Below, in pieces: positions 4,187 to 26,198 of a stretch of 40,838 bases of DNA. How positions within the stretch are numbered: position 1 is the stretch's first letter; the number at the start of each line of letters is the position of its first letter. The notes under the pieces are model-generated. The model ran no database searches and had not been told where the DNA came from. It was given only the letters and a program-made list of their open reading frames with translations. Origin of the DNA: a virus; IMG/VR virus record IMGVR_UViG_3300018424_000064, positions 1 to 40,838 of that record; one strand, 5' to 3'. The position numbers were made by a program, and so were the translations under genes.

Positions 4187-4190
4187 ATCT

Positions 4191-4213: not shown

Positions 4214-4228
4214 ATGTGCTAAAATTGC

Positions 4229-4236
4229 CATAAATA
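4229..4236 (+). promoter_or_regulatory. T4-type late promoter of the baseplate wedge operon
   Basis: CATAAATA matches the T4-like late -10 element (NATAAATA), recognised in T4 by the phage sigma gp55 with co-activator gp33 and clamp gp45. It sits directly after a terminator and 55 nt upstream of the first wedge-operon start, with no gene between. The leader contains a weak AGGG...CCCT inverted repeat (4243-4258). Confidence 0.82.
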
Positions 4237-4290
4237 GATTCTAGGGATAGCAACCCCTCTAAAAGTTCTGGTTAACAGATTTTTGGAGTT

Positions 4291-6940: not shown

Positions 6941-6948
6941 AGAAAGTA

Positions 6949-9900
6949 ATGTCTATTAATAAGGTATCCCAAGCAGTCACAAAGCAAACACCTCAGTTTG
7001 TACAGGATTCTTATCCACTATTTCCTAAATTTCTAGAATATTACTATAAGTCTCAAGAGAAGACAGGACTAGGACAAAATATTCTCAATCAATTTCTAGA
7101 ATACTTAAACATCGATAGACTTGATGTTGACATTTTAGGTGGTGCAACAAAAGTTGTTGAAGAAATTTCTGCAACTGATGATGTAATTATTGTAGAAAAC
7201 GTTGATAAATTCCTTGAAACCAATGGAAGTATCTTAATTGGTGATGAGGTAATTTACTATGAAAAGGCAATTCCTTCTCCAAGTATTGCACTTAGACCAG
7301 GCATTTCTTATGATCAAGTACAATTAAAATGGAGCACCCTTGCTTCACTGATCGAGTCTTTTGACGGTCAAACCACAACATTTCCACTTACTTCTCAAGA
7401 CAGTCCCGTTTCTCCTCCTTCGGCACAACATCTTATCGTCAAGGTTTATAATGAGGTGTTGGTTCCTAATGTTGATTATACCGTCAGTGGTAGTAATATT
7501 GTATTTACAAATCCTCCTAGAACTAGACTTCCTGCCGACGATACAATTTCAACAAGTATTACATTTTTAAATGGATTTATTGAAAATACGATTTATTCAT
7601 TAGATGATATTTCTGGATCTTTTGGCGAAGGGAAAACTAGTTTTCCTGTAACTAGATCTGGATCTTCATACACTCCAATTGTTGATGAATATGTCATCGC
7701 TATCTATGACAATGAATTATTATTACCAAAGGTACAATTTTCTTTCGATGAAGACAGAATTTCGTTTAATTTTGCCCCATTAACAGGAAGACGATTATCA
7801 CTATTCTCAATTGAGGCACCGATTCCTAGTTTTGGTAGTGGTGCTATTGGATTCTCCCGAGTTTCTGAAACTGGACAAATTACTTCAGTCGAAGTTTCTG
7901 AAACTGGATCTGATTATAGATTTGAATATCCACCTAAGATTACTGTTAAATCTGAAACGGGTCGGGATGCATCTGTAAAACCACTGGTAAATGGAATTAA
8001 AAACATTTCTCTTCTATCTGGAGGAAGAGGATACAGCAGCACAAATCCACCATTTGTTTCAATTCAATCTCCAACCAAGACTGGAAGCACAACAGCTAAA
8101 ATTGAAGCGACTGTAAGTAATGGTGTAGTATCTGGATTGAGAATTATTGATTCTGGTAGTGGTTATACGTTTACTCCAAGAATTACGTTTGTACAACCTG
8201 GGGGAGCAGAATTAGCAAGACCTACAATTATTGCAGGATCGGTCACAGGACCTATTACAATCACTAATGCTGGATCTGGATATACTACCCCTCCTGATAT
8301 CTATATCGACCCTCCTACGGGCGAGAATGGCATTGTAGCAACTTTTCAGAGCGTATTAAACTCAAATGGTGAATTGGAATCAGTCACCATTTTAAATCCT
8401 GGTCAAGGATATGAAACGCAACCAAGAATTGCAGTAATTAATCCAGTAAAAGCTCAAGTACTTGAAGCTGTTGTTGATGGCGACGGCAGATTAACTAGTG
8501 TTGAATTGCTTAGTGGTGGTCTTGGATATGAAGATGTTCCATCAGTTTATATTGTTGATGATAGAGTAAATGATCAGGGAGTTTTCATTGGTGGTGTTGG
8601 CGCAACTGCAACAGCAGCAATTTTTAATGGTCAAATTACAGATATCAATGTAACTAACTTTGGTAGTGGATATAGCGCAGAATTTCCACCAAAAGTAGTT
8701 ATTCAATCACCACCACCTGCAGCTGCTTCGGTAGAAATCGGACTTGGAGAAATCACAGGATTTTCTATCATTAAGGCTGGATCTGGATATCAAAAGTGCA
8801 GATTTGAAGGTTGTGCTCGCGCCGCTAGTGGAATTGTAGATTATACTGAAGAAGGAAATGCAGTATTTTCCAACGATACTACTGCCGCCATACATGAGAC
8901 AGAATCTTCTGTAAAATGTCTAGATGCTCTATTTGTTAAGAGACTGCTTGACAAATATATTGAGCAGTTTTTACCAGATGTACCTCAATTAGATTTTAAT
9001 AGCATTGACGTAAGAAATGCTATTAAAAATATTAAAACCTTCTATTCTACTAAAGGCACATCATTTAGTGTTGAATATCTTTTCAAATTACTTTATGGTG
9101 AAACTGTATCTATTTCATATCCCAAAGATCAGATTATTAAACCATCTGCAGCGTCATGGTCTATTAATACAATTCTTAGGGCAACTTTGGTAAGTGGTGA
9201 TCCAAATAATATTCAAGATGCTTTAGTACAACAATTTGAAGATATTGCAGATTCTAATGTTAAAAATGCTAGTGCTCTTGTAGAAAACTTCATTTCTATC
9301 AAGACATCTGATGTTGAAATTTTTGAATTAGTTTTATCTGAGGAAACAATCAATGGTAAATTTATTGTTCCATATAAAACAAAACTCGCAGAACCATTAA
9401 CAGAAACAACAGATATTATTACTGTTGACTCTACAATTGGATGGCCAGAAAGAAACGGTGAATTTGTTATTGGTAATGGAGAAACTGTAAGATATAAGGA
9501 AAAATCACTAAACCAGTTTATTGAATGCACAAGAGGAATTGCAGGAAATCCTCAAGTATGGGATTCTGCAACTGATGTAGTTTCTAATTTTAGAATTTAT
9601 TTAAATGCTGGTACAACTCAAGAAGTTGTAATGAATATCGTTGGTATTGTTGATGCACAGCAAACAACATTAACTGATACTGGATCTTATTATCTTCCTG
9701 GAGATAAACTGACTGTCTCAAAACTTGGTGGCACTTCTGATTTACCTCAGTTAACAACATGGTTGTATAATGTTAAAAAATTAATTGAAGTTGCATCAAT
9801 CACTTTTGGTGGAGTTAATGATGAATATGCAACAGTAACATGTAATGCACCTCATGGACTCTTAGTTGGAGATCAAGTTACTGTTTACGGTGCTAATCCA

Positions 9901-12900
9901 ATCATTTATAACGGCACATTTTTAGTAACTTCAAGAGATACTACTAATGTTTTCCAATATAGACTTCCCCAATCTGCAGTTGTAGAACCACAAGGCAATA
10001 TTTTAATTTCTGTTGACCTGAATAAAGGTAAATCTCAAAATTCTGCTGTATCCAAGGCAGTTGCTCCATATACAACAAATATCCAAAATTCATTCTTTAA
10101 TACCGATTACGTTTATATTGCTTCTACAGGAATTCCAAACTATAATATTGGACCATTTTTAGGATCTGCACTCTTACCTGGAAACCAAAGAAAACTAAAC
10201 CGTTTCCCCTTAAAATCTCAAACGATCTCTACGAAAACTAATATTAGTTCTGGATCGATTGGCACTTGGGTCAATGGTGTATCGATTTGGTCCTACAAGT
10301 CCACAGAGTCAAAGACATACGGACAAATTACATCTATTAGCATTTTAGATAAAGGTGAAAATTATGACGCAGCTTCTCCACCACAACTAACATTTAGTGG
10401 TGGGTATGGATCTGGCGCAGCTGCTGAGGTTGTTGTTGATGGATCTATCACTGAGATTGAAGTAACATCTGGTGGTAGTGGATACAAGACTTCTCCTCTT
10501 GTTTCTATCGTCGGCGGTGGTGGTTCTGGCGCATCTGCAACTGCTATCATTACTAGAGGAGTTGTTTCTAAAATCCTTGTTAATAATGGTGGATCTGGAT
10601 ATACGTCAAAACCCCAAATTTCTATTGTTGGTGGTAGTGGGTCTGGTGCTGCAGGTGATGCCTCTGTTAGAGGGCCAATTAAATCTGTTAGCATCACTAA
10701 TGCTGGGTCTGAATATACATCAAATCCATCTATCAAACTATCTTCGGGTGAGGGCGCTGTTGCCCAAGCAATTGTAAGTAACGGAAGAATTATTTCAATT
10801 GCAATCATTAATGCAGGACAAGGATACACCACTGCTCCAGAAATTTCTATTCAGGGAGATGGTTTTGGTGCAATTGCAAGGGCAACTATTGATGTTGATG
10901 GCGAAAATGCTGGTAGAGTAACCAATATTGAAATTCTTAATAGAGGTATTGGATATAGTCAAGGATCGACAATAATTAATTTGACTTCAGTTGGTCAAAA
11001 TGCATCATTTAGTGCAAATGTATTTAAATGGGTGTATAATTTACAACTCACTGAGTCGTTTGATGATGCAAAGGGATCTGTATTTGAAGGATATAATACA
11101 CAATATGGTGGTGAATATGCACACTTATCTAATCCACAAAGACTAAGATACATTTTAGGTGATAATTTATTTGTTGCATCGAATAATGAAATTTTAGAGC
11201 AAGAGGATCAACTAGAGCACTCTCCTATTCTTGGTTGGGCATATGATGGAAACCCAATTTATGGTCCTTATGCATATGAAGATCCTACGGATCAATCTTC
11301 TAATATAACAAGAATGCGTTCTTCATATGCATTAAAAACTAATTTGGTATATGATGCAATTACAAATCCATATCCAACTAGAGTAAATGGACCTTCTCTA
11401 AATGTTGATGCTGCAGGTCTTTATGTTGATGATTATCAATATAATTTTGGTAGTGGTGATCTAGATCAATACAACGGAAGATTCTGCAAAACACCAGATT
11501 TTCCAGCTGGAAGATATTGCTACTTTGTCACTATTGATTCTACAGAAAATGGTAATCCTGTATTTCCATATGTTTTGGGACCAAGTTACAATTCAGTTGT
11601 TGATATTTGGAATTTAGAAAACACAGCAGTACAGCAAAATATTCCTACTGGTGTTATTAGATACAGAGATCCATATGAAAATGTTGATATTGATGTTGAA
11701 AGAACACCAAATGCATCAACAAATGCTCTAACAACAGAAGCGGGTGATATTTTACTATTTGAAGTTGAAGATGAAAATCGAGATGGCGTCATTAGTCAAG
11801 ATGAAATTGACGATCCTGAGCAGATCTTCGAGGAATCGCCATTACAGGTCTTCGATTACTTCCCCAAAGTTAGATTTGACTCCAAAGTTGACATTGAAGT
11901 TGAAACAATTCAAAAATTTGAAGATGCTTCAGTTACTGGATTTACCGTAGAAAATCCAGGACAAAATTATCAAGTAAATGATATTCTTGTCTTTGATAAT
12001 ACTGGTAATGATAGTACTGGAGTTTCTGCTAGAGTTGCTAAAATTACTGGTGAAGATATTGCTTCCTATACATATGAAACTATTGATGGAATTAACTATG
12101 GAATTATTACAACAGACGTACCACACAACTTAAAGCCTGGTGATGCTATTTCGGTTGATTATGAACCAGTGATGGATAGCACTAATAAAGAATATGTTGT
12201 TCGCCAATATAAAGGTATTGAAGAAATTATTGTAACTCAAAATGGAAGTGGTTATAATGCAGATATTCCACCAGAGGTTATTGTTGATGGCGATGGAGAT
12301 GGTGGTCAAATTGAAGCAGTAATCAATAATGTTGGCGCTATTACTAAATTTAATATTATAAATTCTGGATCTGGATATACTGAGAATCCAAGAATTATTT
12401 TAAGCCACCCTCAAATTTTCAAAAAAGCAAACTACTATGTTTCTTTGATTGAAAACAATAATTACTTAAAAGTCAATGATATTCATGTTAATGCTGACAA
12501 AGAGGTATATCTTTGTGGAGAAACTTTAGATGCCAACGGAAATACGGTTGGATTTGTATCGAAATTCTCTTCAACTGGTCTTAAAGAATGGGAAAAGACC
12601 GCAGAGTCTTCTCAACCAGCAGGATTTACCACTTCTTTAATTTTCAACAAAATTCATGTAAACGGAAACAATATTTGGGTTGTTGGTACAAACCGACCAA
12701 ACACTGCACTTTTAGATTCGTATAATCCAGACATTGTGATTGTAAAATATACACAATCAAACGATGGACTTAGCGCAACGTTAAATTATCAGAAGGGATA
12801 TTCTGGCATTTCTGGATCTACTAGGGCTGATGTTGTAACTGCAATTACACAAATTTCCGATACAAGAATTTTAATCGGTGGACACACAAATACCAATTCT

Positions 12901-15900
12901 GGTAATCCATTGGATGCATTCCTTGCTGTTATTGACACTACTGGATCTTTTGTTACCAAGAGAAAACTGGCCTCAGCAAACAAGTCGGAAAAAATTACTG
13001 ATGTTGTAGTTTCTGATAGTGGAGTTTATTTCACTATGGAAACCGCCGCCACCCAGTCATCGGATGATGTTAATGTTTCCTTCGGAAAAGTATCAATTTC
13101 AACTTCTTTGATCACTGTTGACTGGATTAAAGAAGTATCAAACACATTATATTCATTCTTTGATTCTAGTATTGCCTACGATGAATATGATGAATACTAT
13201 ATTACCGCAACAACTAGACTAAAATCTGATGATGCAACTAAAGATGGATTCTGGGTTGGTAAATTCAAAAATGATGGTGATTTGATTTGGAATTACAGAT
13301 ATTCCACTCCATCTAGAGACATTCAAATGGCACAGAATAGTGTCATAGACATCTTTGGATTCTTGAATGTTGCTTATACAGAAACAAATGTAACAACAGG
13401 GCAAAAATTCGCTTCTTCCGTTAAAATTAATTATGATGGCACGTTAACTAAACATACTGCTAATAAATTTGTTTCTACTAGCGATACCGTTAATAACATT
13501 GAAGGTATTTCTGTACATGCCATCGATACTGACGTTTCTGGAGATGTTTATCTATTTGGACAAACTTCTTGGAATAGAAATGAATTCCTATTTGAGTTTG
13601 GTCAAACTGATGACGCTACAGACACAACAAATCACTACACTCCAACTTTGATAGGTAATGATTCTACAGATGCATTGACTCTACTTGGAGATGGTGTTGC
13701 TAAATTATTCGGATATGATGTTGCAACACCACTAAACTGGGAAAATGCAGCGGTTAAGATTCCTGGATCAGATCTTGGCACAAAACTCGATGACAATTGG
13801 ACTCTTGAGTTTATGCTATACAAAGATTCTGCAAATAGCAATACTCACAGTCAAACTCAAGAAACTTTGTTATCGATTGGTGATGCAACAGACTTAACTG
13901 GTGGTCTTTGGTTGTATTATGATATTGCTACTGGATATCTTGAATTAGTTGTTACAAACAATACAACTGCAATCAACTCTGCAAGTTCTGCATTACAGTC
14001 ATCTCTGACTACAATGTATGCAGATAATACCTGGCAATTTGTTGGATTGAAGAAAGAAGGTAATGTATTTACTGGTTATATTAATGGAATCCAAGTATTT
14101 ACAGGCACAATTTCAAATACTTTATTTGCACAGAAGGATTTATTAATTGGTAATATCTCTGGAAAAAGTGGTGTAGCTGCACAATTTAGATCAAATGAGC
14201 AAGGACAGTATTATATCGATAATTTGAGACTCAGAAATAGAGCAATTACTCCAACAGTACCATCTGATGTTGTAGCATTACCAACTAGCGGTGCATTTGG
14301 TTTAACATATGATTGGACCGATGATACATGGTTTGCAAATAATATCACTCAGTATGATTATATTGATTATGTTGGATTTGGTTTAAAAACTGATAAGGAT
14401 TCTGATACTGTTAGAATCGGAGCACTTGGAGTTAAAACTAATACTCAAATTTCACTCACAAGGGAAACAATCACTCCAGTTACAGGAAATACTTTAACTG
14501 TTACTAATGTTGGATATGCCCTTGGCGAAACTGGTCTACAAACTTTAGACTTCAATGAAGCAACCACTACACACATTCTTGATCAAGAAACTCTCACCCA
14601 GTCTCAAGATATTTGGTCTTCTAGGAATGCTACGGTTCCTTCACCAGGATCGCAGAAAGTAAAAGCACAAGCAGTAGTTAAAAATCGCTATTACTTTAAA
14701 GTCACTGATACCATTAAGATTGATAATGTCAGAATATTAACAACTAATCAGGCATTTAAATTTACAGTTGGTGCAAAATTACTTTTAAATGATTCTGGAT
14801 CATTTGTAAACAGTGGATATATTATTGATATTGATACTACAACCAATAAAATCTATGTTGCTGTAAATAACAACGACTGGTCCAATGATCTTAATCTGGG
14901 TGAATTGAGCACAGAAAGATTTGATGAGCAATCCACTTACGGCATTCGTGGTCCTGTAGTAAATGATGTTAACGAAATTGAAGCATACGAATTCTTTGAG
15001 GTAGTTAATACAACACCAGGAACCTTTGATATTGATCTTGCAGATTATGATGCACCTTCAGATATTGGTGGTACAAATAATTTAGATGAATATGGTAAGT
15101 TTAAAGCATGGGAAGCAGGTTTATATCAAATTAGAATTGATGAGATTTCTGGATCTTCTCCATATATTCCTGGATCTGTAGTTGAAGTCACTGCAAGTGA
15201 CATGACATTCAACGCTGGATACAGCACTATCCAAATTACAAATCTAACTGCAGTAACAAAAATCACTCTTGTTACTAACTTACAAAAAATTCTGCAAGTC
15301 TCTTCTGTAGAAAATAGTGATCAAGTCTATGTAATCACAGACTCGACACATTATCTCACTGCAGGAGAAATGCTCTTTGTTGACGGTAATCCATCCCAAC
15401 AGGTTGGACAAATTGTATATGATGAATATGATGGAGCATTCCCAGTTGATAGGGTGATAAGCATCAAAGAGTTTATCTATAAACTTTCACAAGTACCTGT
15501 AACTCAACCAGCGACCAATGCTTCTAATGTTAGCATTTTTGTCAAATCCCCAACACTTAAGATGTATTATGGACATCAGTATGTCTTTGATTTAAGTCAC
15601 TCTACATTGTTAGGCGGCAATCTATCCTTCTCTAAGGATAGTCTCTACAAACTTGAGTATTCATTCAACTCAATTCAAAGAATTGGTACACCTGGAGTAA
15701 CGGGAGAAGGTCAACCAACACCATCAGTAATCTTAAAGGTTGATAAAGATATTGTTACCAACATTTCATATTATTTTGATCCATCTAGAGTTGGTGAAGA
15801 TTCTCCAATCATTTCAGGAAGTTTCCTTGATATTGTTAATTCACCTTATCTTGGAGAGTTTACGATCTTTACAACTAGCGGTGGCACAATTACAACTGGT

Positions 15901-18900
15901 GACGATACTATGAGATTTGCTCTGCAATCTGAACCAGAGGGTAATGCTGTTGTAAGTCAAGCATCATATTCAACTGCATCTGAAAGTGCGGTTGGATCTA
16001 TTAATGATATTCGTATTATTAACTCTGGTGGTTTCTATACGAAACTTCCAATCGTGTCGGACATCATTTCAAATAGAAAGATTGAAAGAGTCCAAATTAA
16101 CGAACCTGGCACTGAGTATGCAGTTGGTGAGTATACTGGAATTCCTATTGCTGGTGATGGGGAAGGTGGTTTAGTAACAATCACTGTTGCTAATACAACA
16201 GATGATGAAGGTACTGTAATTCCTGGGCAAATTATTGAAGTTGTCGTTACTTCTCCTGGAAAAGGTTATACGACAGCATCGATCGATGTTGAATCTATTG
16301 ATGGTATCCTTGGTCCTACTTTATCTGGATCTGGTGCAGATCTTGAAGTTGTTATTCCACCTTTCGGCAGCGGTGCTTCAATCTTCACTAAGGGCAGCAA
16401 CGTTGGTAAGATTAAGAAACTCAAGAATAATAACTTTGGTTATGATTATCCTCATGACTATACATTAAGACCAGAAATTACTTTCCCAATCAATGCTCAA
16501 TTAACTTCTACAAGTATTCTTTCAAGCATTACTGTAACTGATCCTGGATCTGGATATTCTCAAGCACCTGCTGTTGTAATTACTGGTGGTGGTGGATCTG
16601 GGGCAGTTGCGGAAGCTTCCATTAAGAATGGGCGACTAGATCAAATTGTTGTTAAAGATCCTGGTGCTGGATACTCTTCAACTCCTACAGTTGAATTGAA
16701 GTCTTCGTTTAATTATGTCATTAACCTCGATCTGGGTCTCCTCCAATTTGCTTTCCCACATGGAATTCAAAATGGATCCGAAGTAACTCTAAATGTAGTT
16801 GATACTGGTGATGGAGCAGAATTTCCTCTATCTGCTGGTGCTCTTGGTAGACTAAATGGCACTACAACATATTATGCTATTGCGGGATCTGCGAATTCTC
16901 TTGAAGATGATCAATTGAAACTTGCTATTACTGCAGGTAATGCTGAATTGGGAGATGCTATCACTTTTGTTAATGCTGGTGATGGAAGACAGCAAGTTTT
17001 AACTTCATCTTTTGGTGGCGCAGCAACTGCAAATGTTATTACTTCTACCTTCCTAGAAGGTGAATTTATATACCAAGGTGGATCTTTAGAAACAGCAACC
17101 GCAACTGGTTACGTTTCAACTAATAGTGGTTGGCAAGTTGGACCAAGAATTGTTAAAATCGTTAATTATGAAGGAACATTCTCCGAAGGGCAGAAAATCA
17201 CTGGTGTTGTCTCAAAATCGTCTGGTATTATTAGTGACTTGAATATTGCTAAGGGAGTCTTAGAAATTGGTGCAATCACTAAAACGACAGGACAGTTTGT
17301 TGATGATGTTGGTAAACCATCAGAAATTATTCAAAAAATTCAAGACTCTTATTATTATCAAGATTTCTCTTATGCAATCAACTCCACAGTATCTATTGAT
17401 GAGTGGAAAGACGTTGTATTAAAGAATGTCCACCCAATTTCTTTCAAAGTTTTTGGTCAATTGGGACTGCAAGATGAGGCAAATATTCCCAATAAAGAGA
17501 CATTCTTTGATCTAACTAAGTCGGTTGAGTTGGCACGAGAGGCAATTGTACCAAATATTCAAAACTTTGCTTTAGTTGAGCCAATCTATCAAGAATTCAA
17601 TAATACTGAAGTCTTGTTTAGACAAAGGAGATTAACGTCTTCTGAGAATATTTTAACATCAGTTGTCCAAAGACTTGATGATATTTCTGGTTTATTTGAC
17701 GGAGAAAGAATTGCATTCCCACTAACAGTTGATGGTGATAATGTTGTTGCAAATGCCAACCAGTTGATGATTGTCTTAAATGGCGTTGCTCAAAACCCAG
17801 GAGTATCATTTACAGTTGAGGGAGATTCTATTGTCTTTACTGAGCCACCTTCTCCTCCCGCAAGTGTTAAATATGCAACAATTACCGTTGAGCAAATTCA
17901 AACAAAAGAGTTTAATTTTACGAATATTAGCGGCATTTTCCCAAATGTTGCTGACGTTTTAGTAGGTACTGCATCTAATGCTAGACTGAAAGTAACTGGT
18001 GTTACTGGAAATACCATTATTGGATATATTGAAAGTGGTACTTTTATCATTAATGAATTGGTGCTTGTTAATGCTACTGGATTTGCAGCAAATCTAGCAA
18101 CCATAACAGATCAAACAAATATCGGATTATTCATCTTTGGGGAGACAATTAGAAACTTTGATAATGACACTGCAAAAGTTGAGCAAATTAACCTTGCAAG
18201 AGGACAGGAAACCCCAATTGCTCAGTTGAGATATGGAATTGGAGTTTCCACTACACAATTTGAAGTAATTCCAGCAAACGGAGATCAACTACCAGTTGCC
18301 AATGGAGTATTTGAGATTAATCAGAATTATCAGTTTGGATCTGAAATTTTCACCGTAACAAATGTTACTAACGGTGCAGAATCAACCACACTTACTGTAA
18401 CTAGAGCTCAACTTGGAACTGCAGCAGTAGCACAACTACAAACAACACCAATTTACGGTACGGATATTGAAGTTACTGATACACTTGTATTAAGTAAGAC
18501 CACTGGTACATATCAGTCCACACCTGGACTATTTGATATTCAATTGGATGATATTATTATTGCTTCTGGATCTGGCGTTGTTGCAAGAGTAACTTCCACA
18601 AGTGCATATCAGGATCCTGCAACCGAAGAATTTATCGGTCAAGTTAATATTTCTGATGGATCTTCATTCTTTGGATTCCTCTTCAACAGAATTACATCAA
18701 CGCAATATCCTAACGTTGTTATTGATAATATTTCAGAATCTCAAGTTTCTATTGTTGACTATACTGACAACACTACTTCATTTGACCTTAGATTCCCTGC
18801 AAATGAGTTTATCAATAATTATATCATTAAAACAGAAAATGAAACTGGAGATTTGCAAGAAGATGAATTTATTAGAAACTTCAAGATTGAATATGGCAAT

Positions 18901-21900
18901 TCGACTGGTAACTTTGTAGAAGGTGAAAATGCTGTTGTTAGAAAAATTACATTTAAGAGTAAAGAAGGTGGCGGATTCTTCTCTCAGGGTCAGGTATTAA
19001 GATCTGAAAATACTAAAGCAGAAGTTATTGGATATAATCAACCCAGAAACACGATTTATCTCGGTAAGATGGGTCGTACTCAATCTACAGGTCAAGATTA
19101 TCACATTGCAACTTTTGACAACTCTGCTGAGCTGGATACTGCTCAGAAGAAATTCGGTAAGTCTTCACTATACCTTGCTGCTTCTGCCGATAGTGTTACT
19201 ATTCCAGCATCTGCCGAGTTTGCATATGGTACAAATGCATATACCTATGATATTTACATTCGTCCATCTACGGCAGCTTTAACTGGCACTGCTCATATTT
19301 TTGATACTAGAGAATCTGCAACCGAAGTTGCTGGTAGATTATATCTTGAAAGCAATCAATTACGTTATAACGTAAATGGATCGGATCTGGCAATTGATAC
19401 AACTACCACATTTGTTGCTGACACTTGGTATCATATTGCTGTTGTTAGATCTTCAACTACCGTTAAACTATATGTTAATGGTACAGAAACTGCAACTGGT
19501 ACTGATAGCAGCACATATATTACAAAACCAATTAAGATTGGCGCTGCTTTTAACGGTGGAAATGGATTTGTTGGACACATCGACGAATTTAGAGTTTCTA
19601 CAACCAACAGATATACCACAGCATTTTCACCAAGAAACGGTATCTTCCAAGGGGACGCTAATACGAAACTTCTTCTCCACTTCGATGGTGAAGATGGACA
19701 AACATATACTGATGATTGGTCTGGTGCTGCTAACTGGACTGCAGGACACTATTTCAACAATGATGCGATTCTAGCCACGAAGAGATCTACCAATGGATCT
19801 GCTTCTTATCATAGTTTCAAAACGCAGAGATATCTTGATGCTGCAAATTTAATTTTAGCAAATAAAGCATTCTTGGCGGCAGAAATTGTTTATCAACTAG
19901 AAAATTCTTCTCCATATGCACCGTTTACAGTTCCTACTGGATCTCAAAATTGTATTGATGATATTGAAGATGTGATTGATGAGTTAGTTAAGGATTTGAG
20001 AAATGGTAGCAATAGTTATATGTGGGATGCTGCTGCGGTATATGTAAATCGTATTGCAAATCCAATCGAAATCAATCACATTGAAACTGAAATTGATGAA
20101 TCTATTTGGGCATATGAAAAACTATCTGAATTTGCTCAATTGGTGATTAATAATCAAACAGTTACTGTCACTGGAAATCATGGACTGACTCAAACTCTTA
20201 ATAATACGCTAACAGATTCTAATGATGATTCAGACCCAGCATACACTGCAAATGACTGCGCTGATGTCAAAACAACCATTGATAACCTTGTTACGATTCT
20301 TACTGATACATTAGATCAGGCAAATCAACCAACACCAGTTGATCATCTAGCAACTGTTACTAAACTGGAACCAGCTTACGAATATCTTGCTGCTACATTC
20401 GATGCATTCTATGAGATTCCATTTGATATTTCTAATGTTGATACTCCTAATGAAGTCGTATTCTCCAATCAGATTGATCTTGACTCTAGAAATAGATTCT
20501 ATGATGCAGCAAATCTAATTCGCCTCAATAGAGGTGCAATTGTAGATAAAGCAGCATATGATTTGATTGCTCGTTATCCTGATTTGGCATTGGATATGCC
20601 AAGAAATGAGGATGGCACGGGATCTGGCACTTTAAGATGTAAAACTGATCTTGGACTCATTTTAGACAATCTTGCTGATGATATTGAGGTTGGTGGAAAC
20701 TTCAACACAATTACTGCAATTAGATCATATCTAGGTGCAAATGATGAAATCGTCCATATTAGATTGCAATTGCTTCAATCTGTATATGCCCATACTAGAC
20801 TTGGGTATTACATGAAACAGGCAATTACTGGTGACTTGACAGAAGATAATACAACATCAGTAATTGTTGGCGACTGGGGAATTACAGACGATCCAGGTGG
20901 ATGTGCAAATGTCCAAACAGCAATTGATACTTTAATTGATCTTGCAAACGATACTCTTGCTCCAACTGGACACAGATTTAGAGATGCAGGTGATCTTCTG
21001 TATTTCAATAAAGATTACATTGCCGAAGAGTCTACTGGAATCTTAGATGCAGATTTCACTTACTTACTTGGTGCCGTTGGAAATGAAACCGCATATTCTG
21101 CATTTACATATCCAGATGGTGTGAATGGAAGAACGAGATGTCAAACTGATATCAAGTTAATTCTTGATAGTGTAATCAGTGATTTACTAACAGGTGGTAA
21201 TAGCAATACTGTAAGAGCAATTAATTATTATGTAACTTCTAATCTTGGAATTACTTTTGTTGAAGATCAATTACTGGCAACCATTTATGCTTTTGAGCAA
21301 GTCAAAATGCTTGGAAGTAAGGCGATTAACAATTTACTTTATAATCAGGCAGAACCAGTAACTGGTGATCAATATGCAGCAATTTATACAAGTCAAGATG
21401 CATACAAAGATGAAACTATTACCGATTCAAATGGTGATGGACAATATACTGCTGCAGATTGTGCCAATGTCATTACGGCATATGAGACTCTTTTAGATTC
21501 TTTAATTGATACTTTAACACCTTCTGATGTTACTGGAAGAAATGGTGGCAGAATGGTCCTCTTCAATAGAAATTACTATAAGGAAGAATTGACCAATCTA
21601 GTCAATAATCAGTGGGGTGCTGGCACTTGGGTTTATTCTGATTATGTTGATACAGTATTAGATGATCTTATTCACGATCTTGCACTTACCGATACTAGTA
21701 GCGATAATGTCTTAACTGTCGCTAGAAATATTGATTACTCTATTTCATCTGGCACCACATTTGCTGTCGGAGAAACTGTAGAGTGTGATGTAAATGGATC
21801 TGTCGTTGCAACAGGAGAAGTCCTGGAGAATATTACTGATGATAGAGTTTTGATCATTGGAAATATCACTGGTACTTGGACAACAGCAAATGCTAACATT

Positions 21901-24900
21901 GTTGGTCCTAATGCTACTGCTAACTACATCGGTAATGGAGCTAATGGTGGTTTGGGTGCTACCTATGATTACTATGAAGATGTTGCAAACATTCAAACCC
22001 TAGCAAGTGCTAGAGTTACAACTTCTCCAATCGCAGGGCAAGTACCAAATACAAATCTCTTTACAAATCCAGAGGATCTAACTGCAAACTGGACTTCTTC
22101 AGGAGTAACTCTTGCTGCTAATGCATCTTATGATCCAAACGGTGATCTTTTGGGAGAAGAAATTAGACCAGATCTTACCAATGGTGAGCACTTTATCTAC
22201 AGAGATTACAGTCTTTCTTCTTATGATACATTTGATGACGGGACAATTACTCTAGATGACACCACAAACAGATTTGACGAAGGTGCTACTGCTGAAACAC
22301 AAACATTTACTTTCTCAATATTCCTTAAGAGAGAGGGTCTGTCTAAAGCGAGATTGCAACTTTCTTTAGATCCTGGCACTTCAGCATTCAAGGAAGCATT
22401 CTTTGATATTGATCTTTTAAATGCTACTGTTGGATCAATCTTTACTCCTCAAGGTGGACTGACAGTTGACTCTTTTGGTATTGTCCCTGTCGGACGTAAT
22501 TGGTATAGATCTTATATCACACTGACATTCTCATTCGGATTCTCAACTCTTAGAGCAGAAATCTATGCGAGAAATAGCTCTGGATCAACAACATATACAG
22601 GTTTGAATCAATCTTATAGTGCTATTGGCGTTTGGGGTGCAAAACTGACTAGTGGCGCAATTGATCCCTACCAATCTCAAGACGGTACAATTTATTATGC
22701 AAATAATGAATATAATATCAAAAATTATATTCTCGATAATCTCCAAGACTTCTTACAAGATGCTCTTAGACAAAATCTGACTTCGCCATCTTCAACTGCT
22801 GGATTCTATGCTTATACAAATTCAACTTTAGCAGCAACTTATAACTCTGATGCAGTTACAAGAACATTTAGAAGCAACATTAGTTTGCTGAAGAATCAGT
22901 TAACTAATGACGCATATTATGCAGACATCACTTCTATTAGTGGAATTTCTGTACCATCTAGCACATATGGCACACGAGTTATTCCAATCCCTCTTGGTGG
23001 TGGAATATATTCAGCAGATAATATGTATGGTTTGTTTAGTGATTCTCTAGCAGAAGTTGAAAGTATTACCTCAAATGAAGCTCAGATTGTTAAAGTCTAT
23101 AAGAGATTTAGAATTGATGGTGATATTACAGATGGTCCATTCACAATGAATGAAACTGTCTTTAAGCAAGGTGCCCCTAGTGTAACTGGTATTGTTTATG
23201 GATTCTTTGAAGATGAAAACTTCAAATATCTCGATGTTGAAGTAACTGCTGGTCCATGGGCAGTTTTGGATACCATCGTTGGTAACGAAAATAGCACTAC
23301 CGCTCAAATTAGTGCTATTGAAAATAGAATACATGTCATTGATTTACTAGGTGATTTTGAGGCAGGTGTTCAATTTAAGGGATATACTTCAACAGAAACT
23401 GCAGACGTTGTAGAATTTATTAAGACAACCGCTGCAGTTACTGATAACACTGGTGGTAGATTGACTGTTGATACTGAGAGTTTGACTGGTCTCTTTGAAA
23501 CAACTAGCGTTGTTTATGCTGAGAGTTCCAGACAATATTTGGAAGTATCGAAATATGCTGGTCTTGATTTGAATGTTGGTCAGAGAATTTCTGCCGAAGG
23601 ATACATTAGAATTGGTATTGCTGTTGTTGGTGGTTTAAATGAATTTACTATTGGCAATAGACTTTATAAAGTCTTTAATGGAATTCAAGATACCTCAAAT
23701 TATGGCGTAATCACAGATATTGACTTGAATAATAACTACCTATACATTTCTATTGTAGAAGGTAATATTACTAATGGCGACTTGGTTGGTGATTATGGAA
23801 TTGCTGAGAGTTTCCCAATTGGATATGCGACGGTTATCACTAAAGTTTACTTCGCAGGAGCTGGTGCTGCTTTAGTACAAGACATTAGAAATGTTGGTTT
23901 GAATCAACGTATCTATTTGAGTGATATTGCAGGCACTTTCGATTTGAAAGATTCTATTAAATCTCTCAATGGGTATAGAGCGGCAGTTGTCGATAAGGTT
24001 GATCTTAAGGCAAGAGTTAAGAGGGCATTCCGTGGATTTGATGGTGTCCAGACTAACTTTAAACTCACAACAAATAATGGCGATCAGTATTTCCCTGATT
24101 CTGAAGGTCATATGCTCATTTTCGTTAATGGAATCCTACAACCACCTGGCGCGTCAAATGCATATACGGCATTCTCGGATGAAATTCAATTTACCGAGCC
24201 ACCCACATTAGGATCTTCATTCACAGGATTCTATGTTGGTAAACTGAGACAGTTGGATGATATTTCCTTCGACTTCGACTCATTGAGGCAGTCATTTAAC
24301 CTTAAGCGCAATGGAGTCTTCTACTCACTTACGTTGACGGAAGGTGTCCAATCAACCACGATTAGACCTGAAAACAACATCATTGTTTCGCTCAATGGTG
24401 TCATTCAAGAACCTGGCGTTGGTTTTGAGATTGTTGGTTCTAGAATTATCTTCTCCGAAATTCCTCGCGTGGGATCGACTTTTGTTGCATTCTCCTACGT
24501 TGGATCTGAAGCAGACGTTGATGCTGCTGAAGTTGTCCCACCAATTGAGCCAGGAGACTTTATTGATATTCAGGGTGAAACTTCGGATCGTGAAGTTGCT
24601 GTTATTGAGTCTTCTAATTCACTGATTACCTTTGATTATCTTGGATCAGTCTTTGGTAAAGATGCTGTAGGACAAGCAAATCTTACATCGGGCACTATTG
24701 ATAAAGTAGTTGTAACAGCACCTGGATCTGGATATACCTCAAGACCCAATGTCAGAATTGACTCTATTACGGGTTTTGATGCTAGTATTCGCGCCCTGGT
24801 TGGTGTTGGAGGAATTACACTTTCAACAGCAGGATCTGGATATCAAAATCCATCTGTTGCAGTCGAAACAACCGTTGATGATGATTGGGTTGCACCTAAT

Positions 24901-24945
24901 CTTGCAGATTATGGAGAGGAAGTTATCGATCCTGAGATCCTATAA
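6949..24945 (+). CDS. giant modular virion structural protein, 5998 aa, in the gp7 position
   Basis: One uninterrupted frame of 18 kb follows gp6 by 8 nt with GAAGAAAG as a weak RBS. T4 has the wedge protein gp7 (1032 aa) here, but I see no overall likeness. Modules in order (approximate residues): helical N-terminus 1-60; LDDIS/NGV modules 125-280; GSGY array 288-630; a segment of the FYSTKGTSFSVEYLFKLLYG type (651-745) known from other myovirus structural proteins; GSGY array 1128-1345; YHYH domain 1424-1545; EF-hand-like loop 1608-1619; seven propeller-like blades 1840-2218; LamG-like 2231-2440; GSGY array 3015-3255; LDDIS module 3571-3650; second LamG-like 4055-4225; four helical repeats 4294-4935; carbohydrate-binding-like 5033-5255; two LDDIS modules 5694-5855; last GSGY pair 5915-5978. 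No signal or membrane segment. A large baseplate-periphery or host-binding protein is inferred. Confidence 0.9.
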   Translation: MSINKVSQAVTKQTPQFVQDSYPLFPKFLEYYYKSQEKTGLGQNILNQFLEYLNIDRLDVDILGGATKVVEEISATDDVIIVENVDKFLETNGSILIGDEVIYYEKAIPSPSIALRPGISYDQVQLKWSTLASLIESFDGQTTTFPLTSQDSPVSPPSAQHLIVKVYNEVLVPNVDYTVSGSNIVFTNPPRTRLPADDTISTSITFLNGFIENTIYSLDDISGSFGEGKTSFPVTRSGSSYTPIVDEYVIAIYDNELLLPKVQFSFDEDRISFNFAPLTGRRLSLFSIEAPIPSFGSGAIGFSRVSETGQITSVEVSETGSDYRFEYPPKITVKSETGRDASVKPLVNGIKNISLLSGGRGYSSTNPPFVSIQSPTKTGSTTAKIEATVSNGVVSGLRIIDSGSGYTFTPRITFVQPGGAELARPTIIAGSVTGPITITNAGSGYTTPPDIYIDPPTGENGIVATFQSVLNSNGELESVTILNPGQGYETQPRIAVINPVKAQVLEAVVDGDGRLTSVELLSGGLGYEDVPSVYIVDDRVNDQGVFIGGVGATATAAIFNGQITDINVTNFGSGYSAEFPPKVVIQSPPPAAASVEIGLGEITGFSIIKAGSGYQKCRFEGCARAASGIVDYTEEGNAVFSNDTTAAIHETESSVKCLDALFVKRLLDKYIEQFLPDVPQLDFNSIDVRNAIKNIKTFYSTKGTSFSVEYLFKLLYGETVSISYPKDQIIKPSAASWSINTILRATLVSGDPNNIQDALVQQFEDIADSNVKNASALVENFISIKTSDVEIFELVLSEETINGKFIVPYKTKLAEPLTETTDIITVDSTIGWPERNGEFVIGNGETVRYKEKSLNQFIECTRGIAGNPQVWDSATDVVSNFRIYLNAGTTQEVVMNIVGIVDAQQTTLTDTGSYYLPGDKLTVSKLGGTSDLPQLTTWLYNVKKLIEVASITFGGVNDEYATVTCNAPHGLLVGDQVTVYGANPIIYNGTFLVTSRDTTNVFQYRLPQSAVVEPQGNILISVDLNKGKSQNSAVSKAVAPYTTNIQNSFFNTDYVYIASTGIPNYNIGPFLGSALLPGNQRKLNRFPLKSQTISTKTNISSGSIGTWVNGVSIWSYKSTESKTYGQITSISILDKGENYDAASPPQLTFSGGYGSGAAAEVVVDGSITEIEVTSGGSGYKTSPLVSIVGGGGSGASATAIITRGVVSKILVNNGGSGYTSKPQISIVGGSGSGAAGDASVRGPIKSVSITNAGSEYTSNPSIKLSSGEGAVAQAIVSNGRIISIAIINAGQGYTTAPEISIQGDGFGAIARATIDVDGENAGRVTNIEILNRGIGYSQGSTIINLTSVGQNASFSANVFKWVYNLQLTESFDDAKGSVFEGYNTQYGGEYAHLSNPQRLRYILGDNLFVASNNEILEQEDQLEHSPILGWAYDGNPIYGPYAYEDPTDQSSNITRMRSSYALKTNLVYDAITNPYPTRVNGPSLNVDAAGLYVDDYQYNFGSGDLDQYNGRFCKTPDFPAGRYCYFVTIDSTENGNPVFPYVLGPSYNSVVDIWNLENTAVQQNIPTGVIRYRDPYENVDIDVERTPNASTNALTTEAGDILLFEVEDENRDGVISQDEIDDPEQIFEESPLQVFDYFPKVRFDSKVDIEVETIQKFEDASVTGFTVENPGQNYQVNDILVFDNTGNDSTGVSARVAKITGEDIASYTYETIDGINYGIITTDVPHNLKPGDAISVDYEPVMDSTNKEYVVRQYKGIEEIIVTQNGSGYNADIPPEVIVDGDGDGGQIEAVINNVGAITKFNIINSGSGYTENPRIILSHPQIFKKANYYVSLIENNNYLKVNDIHVNADKEVYLCGETLDANGNTVGFVSKFSSTGLKEWEKTAESSQPAGFTTSLIFNKIHVNGNNIWVVGTNRPNTALLDSYNPDIVIVKYTQSNDGLSATLNYQKGYSGISGSTRADVVTAITQISDTRILIGGHTNTNSGNPLDAFLAVIDTTGSFVTKRKLASANKSEKITDVVVSDSGVYFTMETAATQSSDDVNVSFGKVSISTSLITVDWIKEVSNTLYSFFDSSIAYDEYDEYYITATTRLKSDDATKDGFWVGKFKNDGDLIWNYRYSTPSRDIQMAQNSVIDIFGFLNVAYTETNVTTGQKFASSVKINYDGTLTKHTANKFVSTSDTVNNIEGISVHAIDTDVSGDVYLFGQTSWNRNEFLFEFGQTDDATDTTNHYTPTLIGNDSTDALTLLGDGVAKLFGYDVATPLNWENAAVKIPGSDLGTKLDDNWTLEFMLYKDSANSNTHSQTQETLLSIGDATDLTGGLWLYYDIATGYLELVVTNNTTAINSASSALQSSLTTMYADNTWQFVGLKKEGNVFTGYINGIQVFTGTISNTLFAQKDLLIGNISGKSGVAAQFRSNEQGQYYIDNLRLRNRAITPTVPSDVVALPTSGAFGLTYDWTDDTWFANNITQYDYIDYVGFGLKTDKDSDTVRIGALGVKTNTQISLTRETITPVTGNTLTVTNVGYALGETGLQTLDFNEATTTHILDQETLTQSQDIWSSRNATVPSPGSQKVKAQAVVKNRYYFKVTDTIKIDNVRILTTNQAFKFTVGAKLLLNDSGSFVNSGYIIDIDTTTNKIYVAVNNNDWSNDLNLGELSTERFDEQSTYGIRGPVVNDVNEIEAYEFFEVVNTTPGTFDIDLADYDAPSDIGGTNNLDEYGKFKAWEAGLYQIRIDEISGSSPYIPGSVVEVTASDMTFNAGYSTIQITNLTAVTKITLVTNLQKILQVSSVENSDQVYVITDSTHYLTAGEMLFVDGNPSQQVGQIVYDEYDGAFPVDRVISIKEFIYKLSQVPVTQPATNASNVSIFVKSPTLKMYYGHQYVFDLSHSTLLGGNLSFSKDSLYKLEYSFNSIQRIGTPGVTGEGQPTPSVILKVDKDIVTNISYYFDPSRVGEDSPIISGSFLDIVNSPYLGEFTIFTTSGGTITTGDDTMRFALQSEPEGNAVVSQASYSTASESAVGSINDIRIINSGGFYTKLPIVSDIISNRKIERVQINEPGTEYAVGEYTGIPIAGDGEGGLVTITVANTTDDEGTVIPGQIIEVVVTSPGKGYTTASIDVESIDGILGPTLSGSGADLEVVIPPFGSGASIFTKGSNVGKIKKLKNNNFGYDYPHDYTLRPEITFPINAQLTSTSILSSITVTDPGSGYSQAPAVVITGGGGSGAVAEASIKNGRLDQIVVKDPGAGYSSTPTVELKSSFNYVINLDLGLLQFAFPHGIQNGSEVTLNVVDTGDGAEFPLSAGALGRLNGTTTYYAIAGSANSLEDDQLKLAITAGNAELGDAITFVNAGDGRQQVLTSSFGGAATANVITSTFLEGEFIYQGGSLETATATGYVSTNSGWQVGPRIVKIVNYEGTFSEGQKITGVVSKSSGIISDLNIAKGVLEIGAITKTTGQFVDDVGKPSEIIQKIQDSYYYQDFSYAINSTVSIDEWKDVVLKNVHPISFKVFGQLGLQDEANIPNKETFFDLTKSVELAREAIVPNIQNFALVEPIYQEFNNTEVLFRQRRLTSSENILTSVVQRLDDISGLFDGERIAFPLTVDGDNVVANANQLMIVLNGVAQNPGVSFTVEGDSIVFTEPPSPPASVKYATITVEQIQTKEFNFTNISGIFPNVADVLVGTASNARLKVTGVTGNTIIGYIESGTFIINELVLVNATGFAANLATITDQTNIGLFIFGETIRNFDNDTAKVEQINLARGQETPIAQLRYGIGVSTTQFEVIPANGDQLPVANGVFEINQNYQFGSEIFTVTNVTNGAESTTLTVTRAQLGTAAVAQLQTTPIYGTDIEVTDTLVLSKTTGTYQSTPGLFDIQLDDIIIASGSGVVARVTSTSAYQDPATEEFIGQVNISDGSSFFGFLFNRITSTQYPNVVIDNISESQVSIVDYTDNTTSFDLRFPANEFINNYIIKTENETGDLQEDEFIRNFKIEYGNSTGNFVEGENAVVRKITFKSKEGGGFFSQGQVLRSENTKAEVIGYNQPRNTIYLGKMGRTQSTGQDYHIATFDNSAELDTAQKKFGKSSLYLAASADSVTIPASAEFAYGTNAYTYDIYIRPSTAALTGTAHIFDTRESATEVAGRLYLESNQLRYNVNGSDLAIDTTTTFVADTWYHIAVVRSSTTVKLYVNGTETATGTDSSTYITKPIKIGAAFNGGNGFVGHIDEFRVSTTNRYTTAFSPRNGIFQGDANTKLLLHFDGEDGQTYTDDWSGAANWTAGHYFNNDAILATKRSTNGSASYHSFKTQRYLDAANLILANKAFLAAEIVYQLENSSPYAPFTVPTGSQNCIDDIEDVIDELVKDLRNGSNSYMWDAAAVYVNRIANPIEINHIETEIDESIWAYEKLSEFAQLVINNQTVTVTGNHGLTQTLNNTLTDSNDDSDPAYTANDCADVKTTIDNLVTILTDTLDQANQPTPVDHLATVTKLEPAYEYLAATFDAFYEIPFDISNVDTPNEVVFSNQIDLDSRNRFYDAANLIRLNRGAIVDKAAYDLIARYPDLALDMPRNEDGTGSGTLRCKTDLGLILDNLADDIEVGGNFNTITAIRSYLGANDEIVHIRLQLLQSVYAHTRLGYYMKQAITGDLTEDNTTSVIVGDWGITDDPGGCANVQTAIDTLIDLANDTLAPTGHRFRDAGDLLYFNKDYIAEESTGILDADFTYLLGAVGNETAYSAFTYPDGVNGRTRCQTDIKLILDSVISDLLTGGNSNTVRAINYYVTSNLGITFVEDQLLATIYAFEQVKMLGSKAINNLLYNQAEPVTGDQYAAIYTSQDAYKDETITDSNGDGQYTAADCANVITAYETLLDSLIDTLTPSDVTGRNGGRMVLFNRNYYKEELTNLVNNQWGAGTWVYSDYVDTVLDDLIHDLALTDTSSDNVLTVARNIDYSISSGTTFAVGETVECDVNGSVVATGEVLENITDDRVLIIGNITGTWTTANANIVGPNATANYIGNGANGGLGATYDYYEDVANIQTLASARVTTSPIAGQVPNTNLFTNPEDLTANWTSSGVTLAANASYDPNGDLLGEEIRPDLTNGEHFIYRDYSLSSYDTFDDGTITLDDTTNRFDEGATAETQTFTFSIFLKREGLSKARLQLSLDPGTSAFKEAFFDIDLLNATVGSIFTPQGGLTVDSFGIVPVGRNWYRSYITLTFSFGFSTLRAEIYARNSSGSTTYTGLNQSYSAIGVWGAKLTSGAIDPYQSQDGTIYYANNEYNIKNYILDNLQDFLQDALRQNLTSPSSTAGFYAYTNSTLAATYNSDAVTRTFRSNISLLKNQLTNDAYYADITSISGISVPSSTYGTRVIPIPLGGGIYSADNMYGLFSDSLAEVESITSNEAQIVKVYKRFRIDGDITDGPFTMNETVFKQGAPSVTGIVYGFFEDENFKYLDVEVTAGPWAVLDTIVGNENSTTAQISAIENRIHVIDLLGDFEAGVQFKGYTSTETADVVEFIKTTAAVTDNTGGRLTVDTESLTGLFETTSVVYAESSRQYLEVSKYAGLDLNVGQRISAEGYIRIGIAVVGGLNEFTIGNRLYKVFNGIQDTSNYGVITDIDLNNNYLYISIVEGNITNGDLVGDYGIAESFPIGYATVITKVYFAGAGAALVQDIRNVGLNQRIYLSDIAGTFDLKDSIKSLNGYRAAVVDKVDLKARVKRAFRGFDGVQTNFKLTTNNGDQYFPDSEGHMLIFVNGILQPPGASNAYTAFSDEIQFTEPPTLGSSFTGFYVGKLRQLDDISFDFDSLRQSFNLKRNGVFYSLTLTEGVQSTTIRPENNIIVSLNGVIQEPGVGFEIVGSRIIFSEIPRVGSTFVAFSYVGSEADVDAAEVVPPIEPGDFIDIQGETSDREVAVIESSNSLITFDYLGSVFGKDAVGQANLTSGTIDKVVVTAPGSGYTSRPNVRIDSITGFDASIRALVGVGGITLSTAGSGYQNPSVAVETTVDDDWVAPNLADYGEEVIDPEIL
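7850..8805 (+). repeat. GSGY-type protein repeat array 1 in the giant gene
   Basis: About eight consecutive units of 35-50 residues share the pattern G-x-I/V-T-x-V/I-x-I/V-x2-G-G/S-x-G-Y-x2-x-P-P-x-I/V. Tips include GRGYSS, GSGYTF, GSGYTT, GQGYET, GLGYED and GSGYSA. The pattern of two strands with a Gly-rich turn suggests a beta-solenoid or stacked beta hairpins. Confidence 0.85.
10320..10970 (+). repeat. GSGY-type repeat array 2 in the giant gene
   Basis: Six tandem units of about 33-36 residues, more regular than array 1, with tips GENYDA, GSGYKT, GSGYTS, GSEYTS, GQGYTT and GIGYSQ. Most units also carry a Gly/Ala loop of the form GGSGSGA or GGGGSGA. The reverse complement gives a long Pro-rich open frame that is only a shadow. 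Confidence 0.87.
11920..12405 (+). repeat. GSGY-type repeats 3 in the giant gene
   Basis: Three units: GQNYQV (near 11960), GSGYNA (near 12250) and GSGYTE (near 12370). An HGL/HNL-GD type module lies between the first and second (VPHNLKPGDAISVDY). The array leads straight into the propeller-like region. Confidence 0.78.
12472..13605 (+). repeat. seven propeller-like blade repeats in the giant protein
   Basis: Seven units of about 52-63 residues begin near 12472, 12645, 12832, 12999, 13156, 13333 and 13507. Each has the order: Asp/Val-rich strand, strand of the type VYLCGET, IWVVGTN, ILIGGHT, YYITATT or VYLFGQT, then a strand of the type GFVSKF, AFLAVI, FWVGKF or FLFEFG, then a variable loop. 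This is how beta-propellers read, and seven blades would close a ring. Blades 4 and 6 are the least regular. A LamG-like domain follows at once. Confidence 0.68.
15990..16710 (+). repeat. GSGY-type repeat array 4 in the giant gene
   Basis: Five units with tips GGFYTK, GTEYAV, GKGYTT, GSGYSQ and GAGYSS. A 60-residue spacer separates the third and fourth. Unit 4 includes TGGGGSGA, matching units of array 2. Confidence 0.82.
19828..21765 (+). repeat. four tandem helical repeats in the giant protein
   Basis: Units begin near 19828, 20488, 20971 and 21535. Each opens with a line like RYLDAANLILANKAFL, RFYDAANLIRLNRGAI, RFRDAGDLLYFNKDYI or RMVLFNRNYYKEEL, then (where complete) Phe-x-x-Pro, a Cys followed by an acidic helix (CIDDIEDVIDELVKDL, CKTDLGLILDNLADDI, CQTDIKLILDSVISDL), G-x-N-x-x-x-x-A, and an AYE/FEQ-type helix. 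Units 1-3 close with a segment containing DC-A or GC-A and a final helix. The fourth is cut short. I recall similar DAANLI repeats in cyanophage structural proteins. Confidence 0.85.
24690..24885 (+). repeat. GSGY-type repeat pair at the giant protein C-terminus
   Basis: Two units with tips GSGYTSRPNV and GSGYQNPSV end 20 residues before the stop. Both encode GSGY with the same 12 bases (GGATCTGGATAT). Confidence 0.83.
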
Positions 24946-24948
24946 ATA
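24940..24948 (+). promoter_or_regulatory. T4-type late promoter overlapping the giant gene stop
   Basis: CTATAAATA is a full match to the late promoter consensus TATAAATA. The stop TAA (24943-24945) of the 18-kb gene is part of it. The next start is 20 nt downstream with AGAGGA (24961-24966) as RBS. The promoter would let the two following genes be made independently of an 18-kb upstream transcript. Confidence 0.88.
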
Positions 24949-24968
24949 ACTAGAAAGTCTTAGAGGAA

Positions 24969-26195
24969 ATGGCAAAGCAAACATTAGGTCTTGGAGCCGC
25001 CGCCAATGACAACACGGGGGATACCCTCCGTGTAGGTGGCGATAAAATCAATGACAACTTTAATGAAATCTATAGTGCAATTGGTAATGGATCTAACTTG
25101 CAGATCAGCCTTACTAATGCTGCCTCTGGACAAGTATTGAGATATAATGGTAGTAGTTTTATTCCGTCAGATTATACTAATCTCACGGCTGCTTTGGATG
25201 TAAATGGAAATTCGATTATTTCCACTAATAATGGAAATATTAACATTGCCACAAATGGCACTGGAGATTTAACACTAGGAGTTGGTGGAGTTACTAATAC
25301 TTTTGATGGTGCTACTGGCACCATTGATTTTCCAACTAAACTCTCATATAAAAATGCATATACCACATTAGGATCTGCCCCCGCAGCAGCAACATATCCT
25401 GGTTATTTCTTCACCGTTGATGGTGACGATAATCCATATGTAAATATCAATATTACTGCGGGTGGTGTTGGATTAACTAGAGCAAAATTAATTACAGAAT
25501 ATTCGAGTGTTGGTGCTCTTTCTGATGTTGATTTAGTTACAACTCCTCCTACAAATAATCAAGTTTTGAAGTGGAGCACTGCTGATAGTAAGTGGGTGCC
25601 TGCTGATGATGACGCTGGTGTATCTTCAATTAGTGTATTTGCTACAGTTGCTGGAGATACGGGGTCTACAACAGCAAATAGTCAGTCTGATACTTTGACC
25701 CTCGCTGGTGGTACAAACATCGTTACAAGCGTTTCTGGAGACACTCTGACGATTGATTTTGAGGGCACACTAACCACTACCCTCGCTGCATTGGATGATA
25801 CTGATGTTAGTGGTATTACTCAAGGAGATTCGTTGTTTTGGAATGGCACTGACTGGGTTGTTACCAGAAGTCCAATTACTTGGTGGGAATTGAATGCCAA
25901 TGGCAGCAACCACTATACATTTGCTGGTCCTGGATTTTCGGCAGCAACAGACGATCCAACCATTTATGTGCATAGAGGATTTACATACGCTTTTGATAAC
26001 TCTGTGCAGGGTGGAGCACATCCATTTAGAATTCAATCTACCCAAGGATTGACAGGGACACCATATACCTCAGGTCAGAGTGGAAGTGGATCTAACGTCC
26101 TTTATTGGACAGTGCCAATGGATGCTCCAACAACACTATATTATCAATGCACAATCCACGCATTAATGAACGGTACAATTAACGTCGTAAGTTGA
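24969..26195 (+). CDS. tail-fibre-like structural protein with C-terminal cupredoxin-like domain, 408 aa
   Basis: The N-terminus (TLGLGAAANDNTGDTLRVGG, then KINDNFNEIYSAIG, residues 4-39) is the attachment-type segment found on many cyanophage fibre and accessory proteins. Residues about 40-300 are Thr/Ser/Asn/Gly-rich and beta-strand-like, as in tail fibres. Residues about 308-408 read as a cupredoxin: YTFAGPGFS, then TIYVHRGFTYAFDN, then HPFRIQS, and at the end YYQCTIHALMNGTINV. His351, Cys394, His397 and Met400 match the type-1 copper ligand set H...C-x2-H-x2-M (as in amicyanin). Metal binding is inferred, not shown; the fold could be used only for binding surfaces. The start has an AGAGGA RBS and lies just after a late promoter; the next gene begins 3 nt after the stop. 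Confidence 0.87.
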   Translation: MAKQTLGLGAAANDNTGDTLRVGGDKINDNFNEIYSAIGNGSNLQISLTNAASGQVLRYNGSSFIPSDYTNLTAALDVNGNSIISTNNGNINIATNGTGDLTLGVGGVTNTFDGATGTIDFPTKLSYKNAYTTLGSAPAAATYPGYFFTVDGDDNPYVNINITAGGVGLTRAKLITEYSSVGALSDVDLVTTPPTNNQVLKWSTADSKWVPADDDAGVSSISVFATVAGDTGSTTANSQSDTLTLAGGTNIVTSVSGDTLTIDFEGTLTTTLAALDDTDVSGITQGDSLFWNGTDWVVTRSPITWWELNANGSNHYTFAGPGFSAATDDPTIYVHRGFTYAFDNSVQGGAHPFRIQSTQGLTGTPYTSGQSGSGSNVLYWTVPMDAPTTLYYQCTIHALMNGTINVVS

Positions 26196-26198
26196 TAA

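Follow-up and report, generated by a model that had tools for sequence, protein, structure and literature searches.

The analysed window, a virus record of 40,838 bases, contains a cyanomyovirus baseplate operon. Its genes are arranged in the order phrog_719 wedge protein, PAAR protein, gp25, gp6, a giant gene, a gp9-like connector, phrog_708 wedge protein, gp8, VrlC and a cut structural protein. gp6, the wedge partner of gp7 in T4, is located on the plus strand at 4892..6940 and matches T4 gp6 with an hhalign probability of 100. The giant gene (6949..24945, +) directly adjoins gp6 in this wedge operon, as does gp7 in T4, and it is found at the same place in the relatives compared. Downstream follow the gp9-like connector (24969..26195, +; PF07880, T4_gp9_10_N, the gp9/gp10 N domain), the phrog_708 wedge protein of 1387 aa including a YHYH domain (26199-30362) and gp8 (30409..31941, +). 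The neighbours gp6, gp8 and the gp9-like protein are T4 homologues. The phrog_708 protein does not match any of the T4 baseplate proteins tested; like the giant, it contains YHYH and GxGY modules. None of the baseplate genes compared in the window showed homology to T4 gp11 or gp12. Models of defence genes gave no match to four neighbouring proteins.

The giant gene runs from ATG to TAA over 5998 codons with zero internal stops, exactly as a stop-free frame behind gp6 was described in the initial annotation. The protein has a computed mass of 648.7 kDa and a computed pI of 4.4. This agrees with the ~0.65 MDa per chain estimated there, and six copies would amount to 3.9 MDa (nearly 4 MDa in that estimate). 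Sigma-70-like promoters and terminators within the gene do not exceed chance level, and no DNA tandem repeats were found. A late-promoter-like element, TATAAATA, overlaps the stop codon (24941..24948, +). It is the sole copy in the window, yet at this base composition the 8-mer carries no significance of its own. The promoter initially proposed at this site thus gains support not from the motif itself but from its recurrence, since nATAAATA is found at the same place, the end of the giant gene, in the divergent relatives S-SM1, P-SSM4, P-HM2, ACG-2014f, Mosig and S-B68.

The giant belongs to a family that was known before. The PHROG 701 profile (6136 positions) matches its first ~4430 residues in register, and phrog_18802 also matches its last ~1570 residues. 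The first 800 residues find a match in 476 of 50,697 phage records, with a coverage of at least 80% in 290 of them; for the last 981 residues, 279 records reach this coverage. S-H35, S-B64 and S-SKS1 match the giant locus as well; their records carry no annotated gene there. The member of P-SSM4 (PSSM4_080) is even longer (7312 aa) and already named gp7, and that of S-SM1 is annotated as T4-GC969. Virion mass spectrometry, one of the checks proposed initially, was done on this orthologue by Sullivan et al. 2010, where purified virions of S-SM1 gave multiple peptides of T4-GC969 (PMC3037559), so that virion presence was shown by others for the S-SM1 orthologue. In S-CREM2, ORF122 is a shorter family member by sequence (1937 aa, length taken from published coordinates), for which a 2023 report gives 91 unique peptides in the virion (PMC10665884). 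The giant is hence a standard gene of this cyanomyovirus group, and the exceptionality implied initially is not supported.

The comparison with S-SM1 SSM1_102 (6180 aa) is informative for the whole frame. Both proteins are collinear from end to end and 67% of the aligned residues are identical. At four-fold-degenerate sites of the shared residues identity drops to 43%, which is close to saturation. Residue identity of this extent at saturated four-fold sites argues for one gene with selection at the protein level along the whole frame. Judged from the coding sequences, purifying selection acts over the full length of the giant. The most constrained stretch comprises residues 5801-5900 (24349-24648) and is located outside the gp7 core; it is 98% identical to S-SM1 while its four-fold sites are 56% identical.

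The proteins encoded after gp6 differ widely in size, i.e. 874 aa in Mosig, 1006 in phiM7, 1454 in S-CRM01, 1915 in S-B68, 3048 in S-PM2, 4225 in ACG-2014f, 4454 in P-HM2, 5998 in the window, 6180 in S-SM1 and 7312 in P-SSM4. Common to this series are three collinear blocks A, B and C. Together they comprise about 480 of the 5998 residues of the giant (about 8%) and follow the order of T4. Block A (residues 1-66; 6949..7146, +) consists of the predicted N-terminal helices. It is the putative counterpart of Pfam Gp7_helical (T4 gp7 643-689), in register but weak alone; it extends to ~105 in some members and is missed by pairwise search in some. Block B (residues 619-866; 8803..9546, +) matches T4 gp7 683-787 and carries the motif FYSTKGT...LFKLLYGE at residues 698-718. 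The baseplate wedge model PF23786 exceeds its cut-off here. Block C (residues 3364-3530; 17038..17538, +) matches T4 gp7 861-895.

A blastp search of the whole giant against T4 gp7 gave no match at E 1e-4; the similarity could be traced only with short core segments and profiles. We compared them by hhalign to a profile of 25 T4-like gp7 sequences, with 60 column permutations as control. The full-length core first aligned with block C only, and the blocks were then tested apart. Block B reaches T4 gp7 683-787 with a probability of 95 and a score of 61 versus 21 for the best permutation. The whole core, by its block C segment, reaches 861-895 with a probability of 97 and a score of 88 versus 25. 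With block C trimmed apart, the score is 44 versus 30, and block A on T4 gp7 644-689 (Gp7_helical) is at noise level (20.9 versus 20.8). Among ten T4 tail and fibre proteins compared, gp7 alone matches the core of the giant. In a search of all 177,635 distinct PDB sequences with the block B profile, hits better than E 0.3 are confined to gp7 chains from T4 and another T4-like phage (E 3-4e-4). Foldseek with the model of residues 1-880, in which the core helices are of low confidence, gave no match at E ≤ 0.001; the hits at ranks 2 and 11 are T4-like baseplate chains with the length of gp7 (E 0.004 and 0.2, TM <0.1).

The gp7 domains V and VI (PF21427, PF21456), present in T4 gp7, are absent from the giant at E ≤ 1 and likewise not found in the members from phiM7, Mosig and S-CRM01. 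As these Pfam models describe close T4 relatives, we treat both domains as accessory, and the gp7 claim is limited to homology of the core. Within this limit, the profile matches establish the giant as a gp7 homologue independently of the position of its gene. The initial reading of a single mosaic virion protein at the gp7 locus is thereby strengthened. Block C is located near the C-terminus in S-CRM01, S-B68 and phiM7, and the ~2470 residues following it in the giant are therefore regarded as an extension.

The extra mass outside the core consists of insertions and this C-terminal extension, both made up of adhesin-type modules (all on the plus strand). Insertion 1 (residues ~67-618) is placed after the first helices and before the helices of block B in the model, where the core helices are of low confidence. 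Residues 67-120 (7147..7308) form a small beta module. Residues 67-108 (7147-7272) and 811-854 (9379-9510), which flank insertion 1, resemble each other at 36%. Insertion 1a follows with two 'LNG...PG...F..P' modules (residues 122-290; 7312..7818), recognized by self-comparison and modelled with a pLDDT of about 90. Insertion 1b is the first GxGY beta-repeat cluster (residues 296-618; 7834..8802; motif count, self-comparison and model).

Between blocks B and C we find GxGY cluster 2 (residues 1125-1350; 10321..10998; motif count and self-comparison), a YHYH domain (PF14240 match; residues 1384-1547; 11098..11589), GxGY cluster 3 (residues 1757-1820; 12217..12408), a beta-propeller (residues 1831-2215; 12439..13593), LamG lectin-like domain 1 (residues 2225-2435; 13621..14253) and GxGY cluster 4 (residues 3132-3265; 16342..16743), clusters 3 and 4 by self-comparison. 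The propeller and LamG 1 are derived from an AlphaFold model (pLDDT 88, pTM 0.82 for the pair) and Foldseek, with matches to CylK, Sec12, trans-sialidases and GH43 enzymes at E down to 4e-14. The modelled architecture resembles carbohydrate-active enzymes of the sialidase/GH43 type. YHYH was predicted as a metal hydrolase (PMC7824862). For the giant this function is doubtful, as RYCYF is found where the eponymous motif is expected.

The extension after block C contains LNG module 3 (residues 3573-3664; 17665..17940; self-comparison) and LamG lectin-like domain 2 (residues 4062-4230; 19132..19638; PF13385, E 1e-20). Three to four helical repeats of ~170 aa follow at residues 4290-4900 (19816..21648; self-comparison), the part of the protein where size differs most between phages. 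Further downstream are a GTA_spike_fiber domain (NF048003, 58.8 bits at a cut-off of 36; residues 5110-5237; 22276..22659), LNG modules 4 and 5 (residues 5682-5860; 23992..24528) and GxGY cluster 5 (residues 5903-5994; 24655..24930), the latter two by self-comparison. LNG residues 122-238 resemble residues 5682-5789 (E 8e-9). The repetition of modules noted initially is thus borne out by self-comparison, with five GxGY clusters, about five LNG modules and three to four helical repeats. Strict GxGY motifs occur 17 times in the giant versus a mean of 1.7 and a maximum of 6 in 200 composition shuffles. Among the members compared, the large class alone has the propeller, LamG 1 and 2 and the spike domain, and GxGY and YHYH are more widespread. 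The propeller-lectin fold is also found in other cyanophage structural proteins, which argues for modules that move, and neighbouring baseplate genes seem to exchange them as well.

Taken together, we consider it quite likely that the giant as a whole is a gp7 wedge scaffold with a core of ~480 residues from which modules project towards the cell. T4 gp7 is a monomer present in six copies per tail (PMC3004832). In phage XM1 the gp7 orthologue gp17 (242 residues) and two gp16 chains make up the core bundle; the tail spikes are bound by two parts of gp17, the flexible loop 80-106 and the C-tail (PMC10457771). As to baseplate structures of marine Synechococcus myoviruses, a literature search returned methylophage work only. 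By analogy, the three core blocks would be the scaffold that packs with two gp6-type chains in T4 and XM1. Insertion 1 and the extension after block C would leave this scaffold at places comparable to the XM1 loop and tail, which suggests a wedge scaffold with built-in adhesin modules. Insertion 1, the ~2500-residue insertion between B and C and the extension might then reach cellward with their propeller, LamG, YHYH, spike-fibre-type and repeat modules and thereby add further surface contacts near the trigger of contraction. For module orientation, binding and stoichiometry of the giant we infer the corresponding arrangement, with one chain per wedge and presumably, as in T4, six per virion. 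Stepwise accretion and module shuffling around a fixed core could have led to the range of 874-7312 aa. One may further speculate that in cyanomyoviruses with a large gp7 the wedge scaffold itself is a main host-binding organ, its lectin, propeller and spike modules taking over the work of the separate gp10-gp11-gp12 short-fibre assemblies of T4. We regard this as rather doubtful; if true, six gp7 chains of 650 kDa would wire receptor contact directly into the contraction-triggering wedge.

The frame could in principle be an assembly or frameshift artefact fusing two genes. Other IMG/VR contigs match the window at 1-16743 and 17000-29942 with 99.95-99.98%, and the contig behind the second of these matches starts near 16789. 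Two contigs of metagenome 3300018421 end and begin ~45 bp apart inside the giant gene (16743-16789), and a scan of viral contigs for one bridging 16744-16788 found none. These ~45 bp without a second IMG/VR contig are what an artefact could appeal to. However, the giant stays collinear with S-SM1 around this site at 84-85% identity, other contigs cover the remainder of the gene, and full-length collinear orthologues exist in S-SM1 and P-SSM4, complete isolate genomes with named hosts. A join, for which a check had been proposed initially, is very unlikely with near-identical contigs on both flanks and S-SM1 collinear throughout, and the probability of an artefact of either kind is practically negligible. 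Alternatively, the primary product might be cleaved post-translationally into several virion proteins such that no 650-kDa chain exists in the particle. Nothing positive speaks for cleavage; there is the extreme chain length, and the accessible parts of the proteomics papers carry no report of full-length peptide coverage. But domain model searches found no protease-like domain in the giant, and full-length collinearity over variable members marks no cut site, although this evidence is weak either way. We consider cleavage unlikely.

A different view concerns identity. According to a 2020 paper, cyano- and pelagimyophages lack T4 gp7 and have VrlC in its place (PMC7029224), and the giant would then be an accessory fibre-like structural protein. 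VrlC (PHROG 358; 31945..39294, +) is indeed large and conserved in the same operons. DUF4815 (PF16075) is found at residues 1029-1319 of the VrlC-like protein. However, VrlC is a separate gene alongside gp7: the only phrog_358 match in the window is 31945-39294 and none is found in the giant. Moreover, the VrlC profile versus T4 gp7 scores 19, within noise, and has no match to the ten T4 proteins, whereas the core of the giant does match T4 gp7. Both genes co-occur in the relatives examined, where VrlC is either annotated in the same operon or corresponds to an unnamed or otherwise named large gene downstream of gp8, and even the 874-aa protein of Pelagibacter phage Mosig has blocks A, B and C. 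Hence we consider a VrlC in the place of gp7 highly improbable. On these profile data the published absence is contradicted and seems best replaced by a gp7 that is present with a split core. More serious, though still unlikely, is a gp7 whose decorations serve structure (assembly, stability, spacing) and not receptor binding. No binding function is known to us for the GxGY and LNG repeats, and the YHYH motif is altered to RYCYF in the family of the giant. Against this stand the sialidase/GH43-like propeller-LamG architecture, the presence of two LamG domains and a spike-fibre domain, and the fact that these modules are limited to the large class, which is what adhesion specific to a lineage would predict.

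The wedge scaffold with projecting modules hence remains our preferred reading. New here are the sequence-based gp7 identity, the module map and the correction of the literature claim that gp7 is missing from cyano- and pelagimyophages; the gene itself is ordinary for its phage group. Giants listed as 'hypothetical' or 'virion structural' in hundreds of cyanophage records gain a gp7 identity, with a core split by insertions. The series from 874 to 7312 aa moreover lends itself to testing to what extent a wedge scaffold can accommodate, and maybe exploit, modules of ten times its size.

Among known systems, T4 gp7 (1032 aa) shares with the giant the homologous core in the same order and the gene place after gp6. 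It differs by about 640 aa ahead of the core, whereas the giant has its extra mass between and after the core blocks. The giant is about six times as long, owing to modules of sugar-binding and repeat type around the small conserved core. XM1 gp17 likewise has the role of a T4 gp7 orthologue with extra segments, which in XM1 bind spikes (PMC10457771), but it is 25 times smaller and the correspondence of insertion points is a presumed one. VrlC is similarly large and encoded in the same operon but has no detectable similarity to gp7. The gp7 of Prochlorococcus phage P-SSM4 is an orthologue with 64% identical residues and differs from the giant by an insertion of 1109 residues within the helical-repeat region; these residues, 4611-5719, are tandem repeats around 'SLTFTCxxDxNxTxHxYPR'. 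SSM1_102 of Synechococcus phage S-SM1 is a full-length orthologue in the same position between gp6 and gp9, and differs mainly by insertions near residues ~4070 and ~4430.
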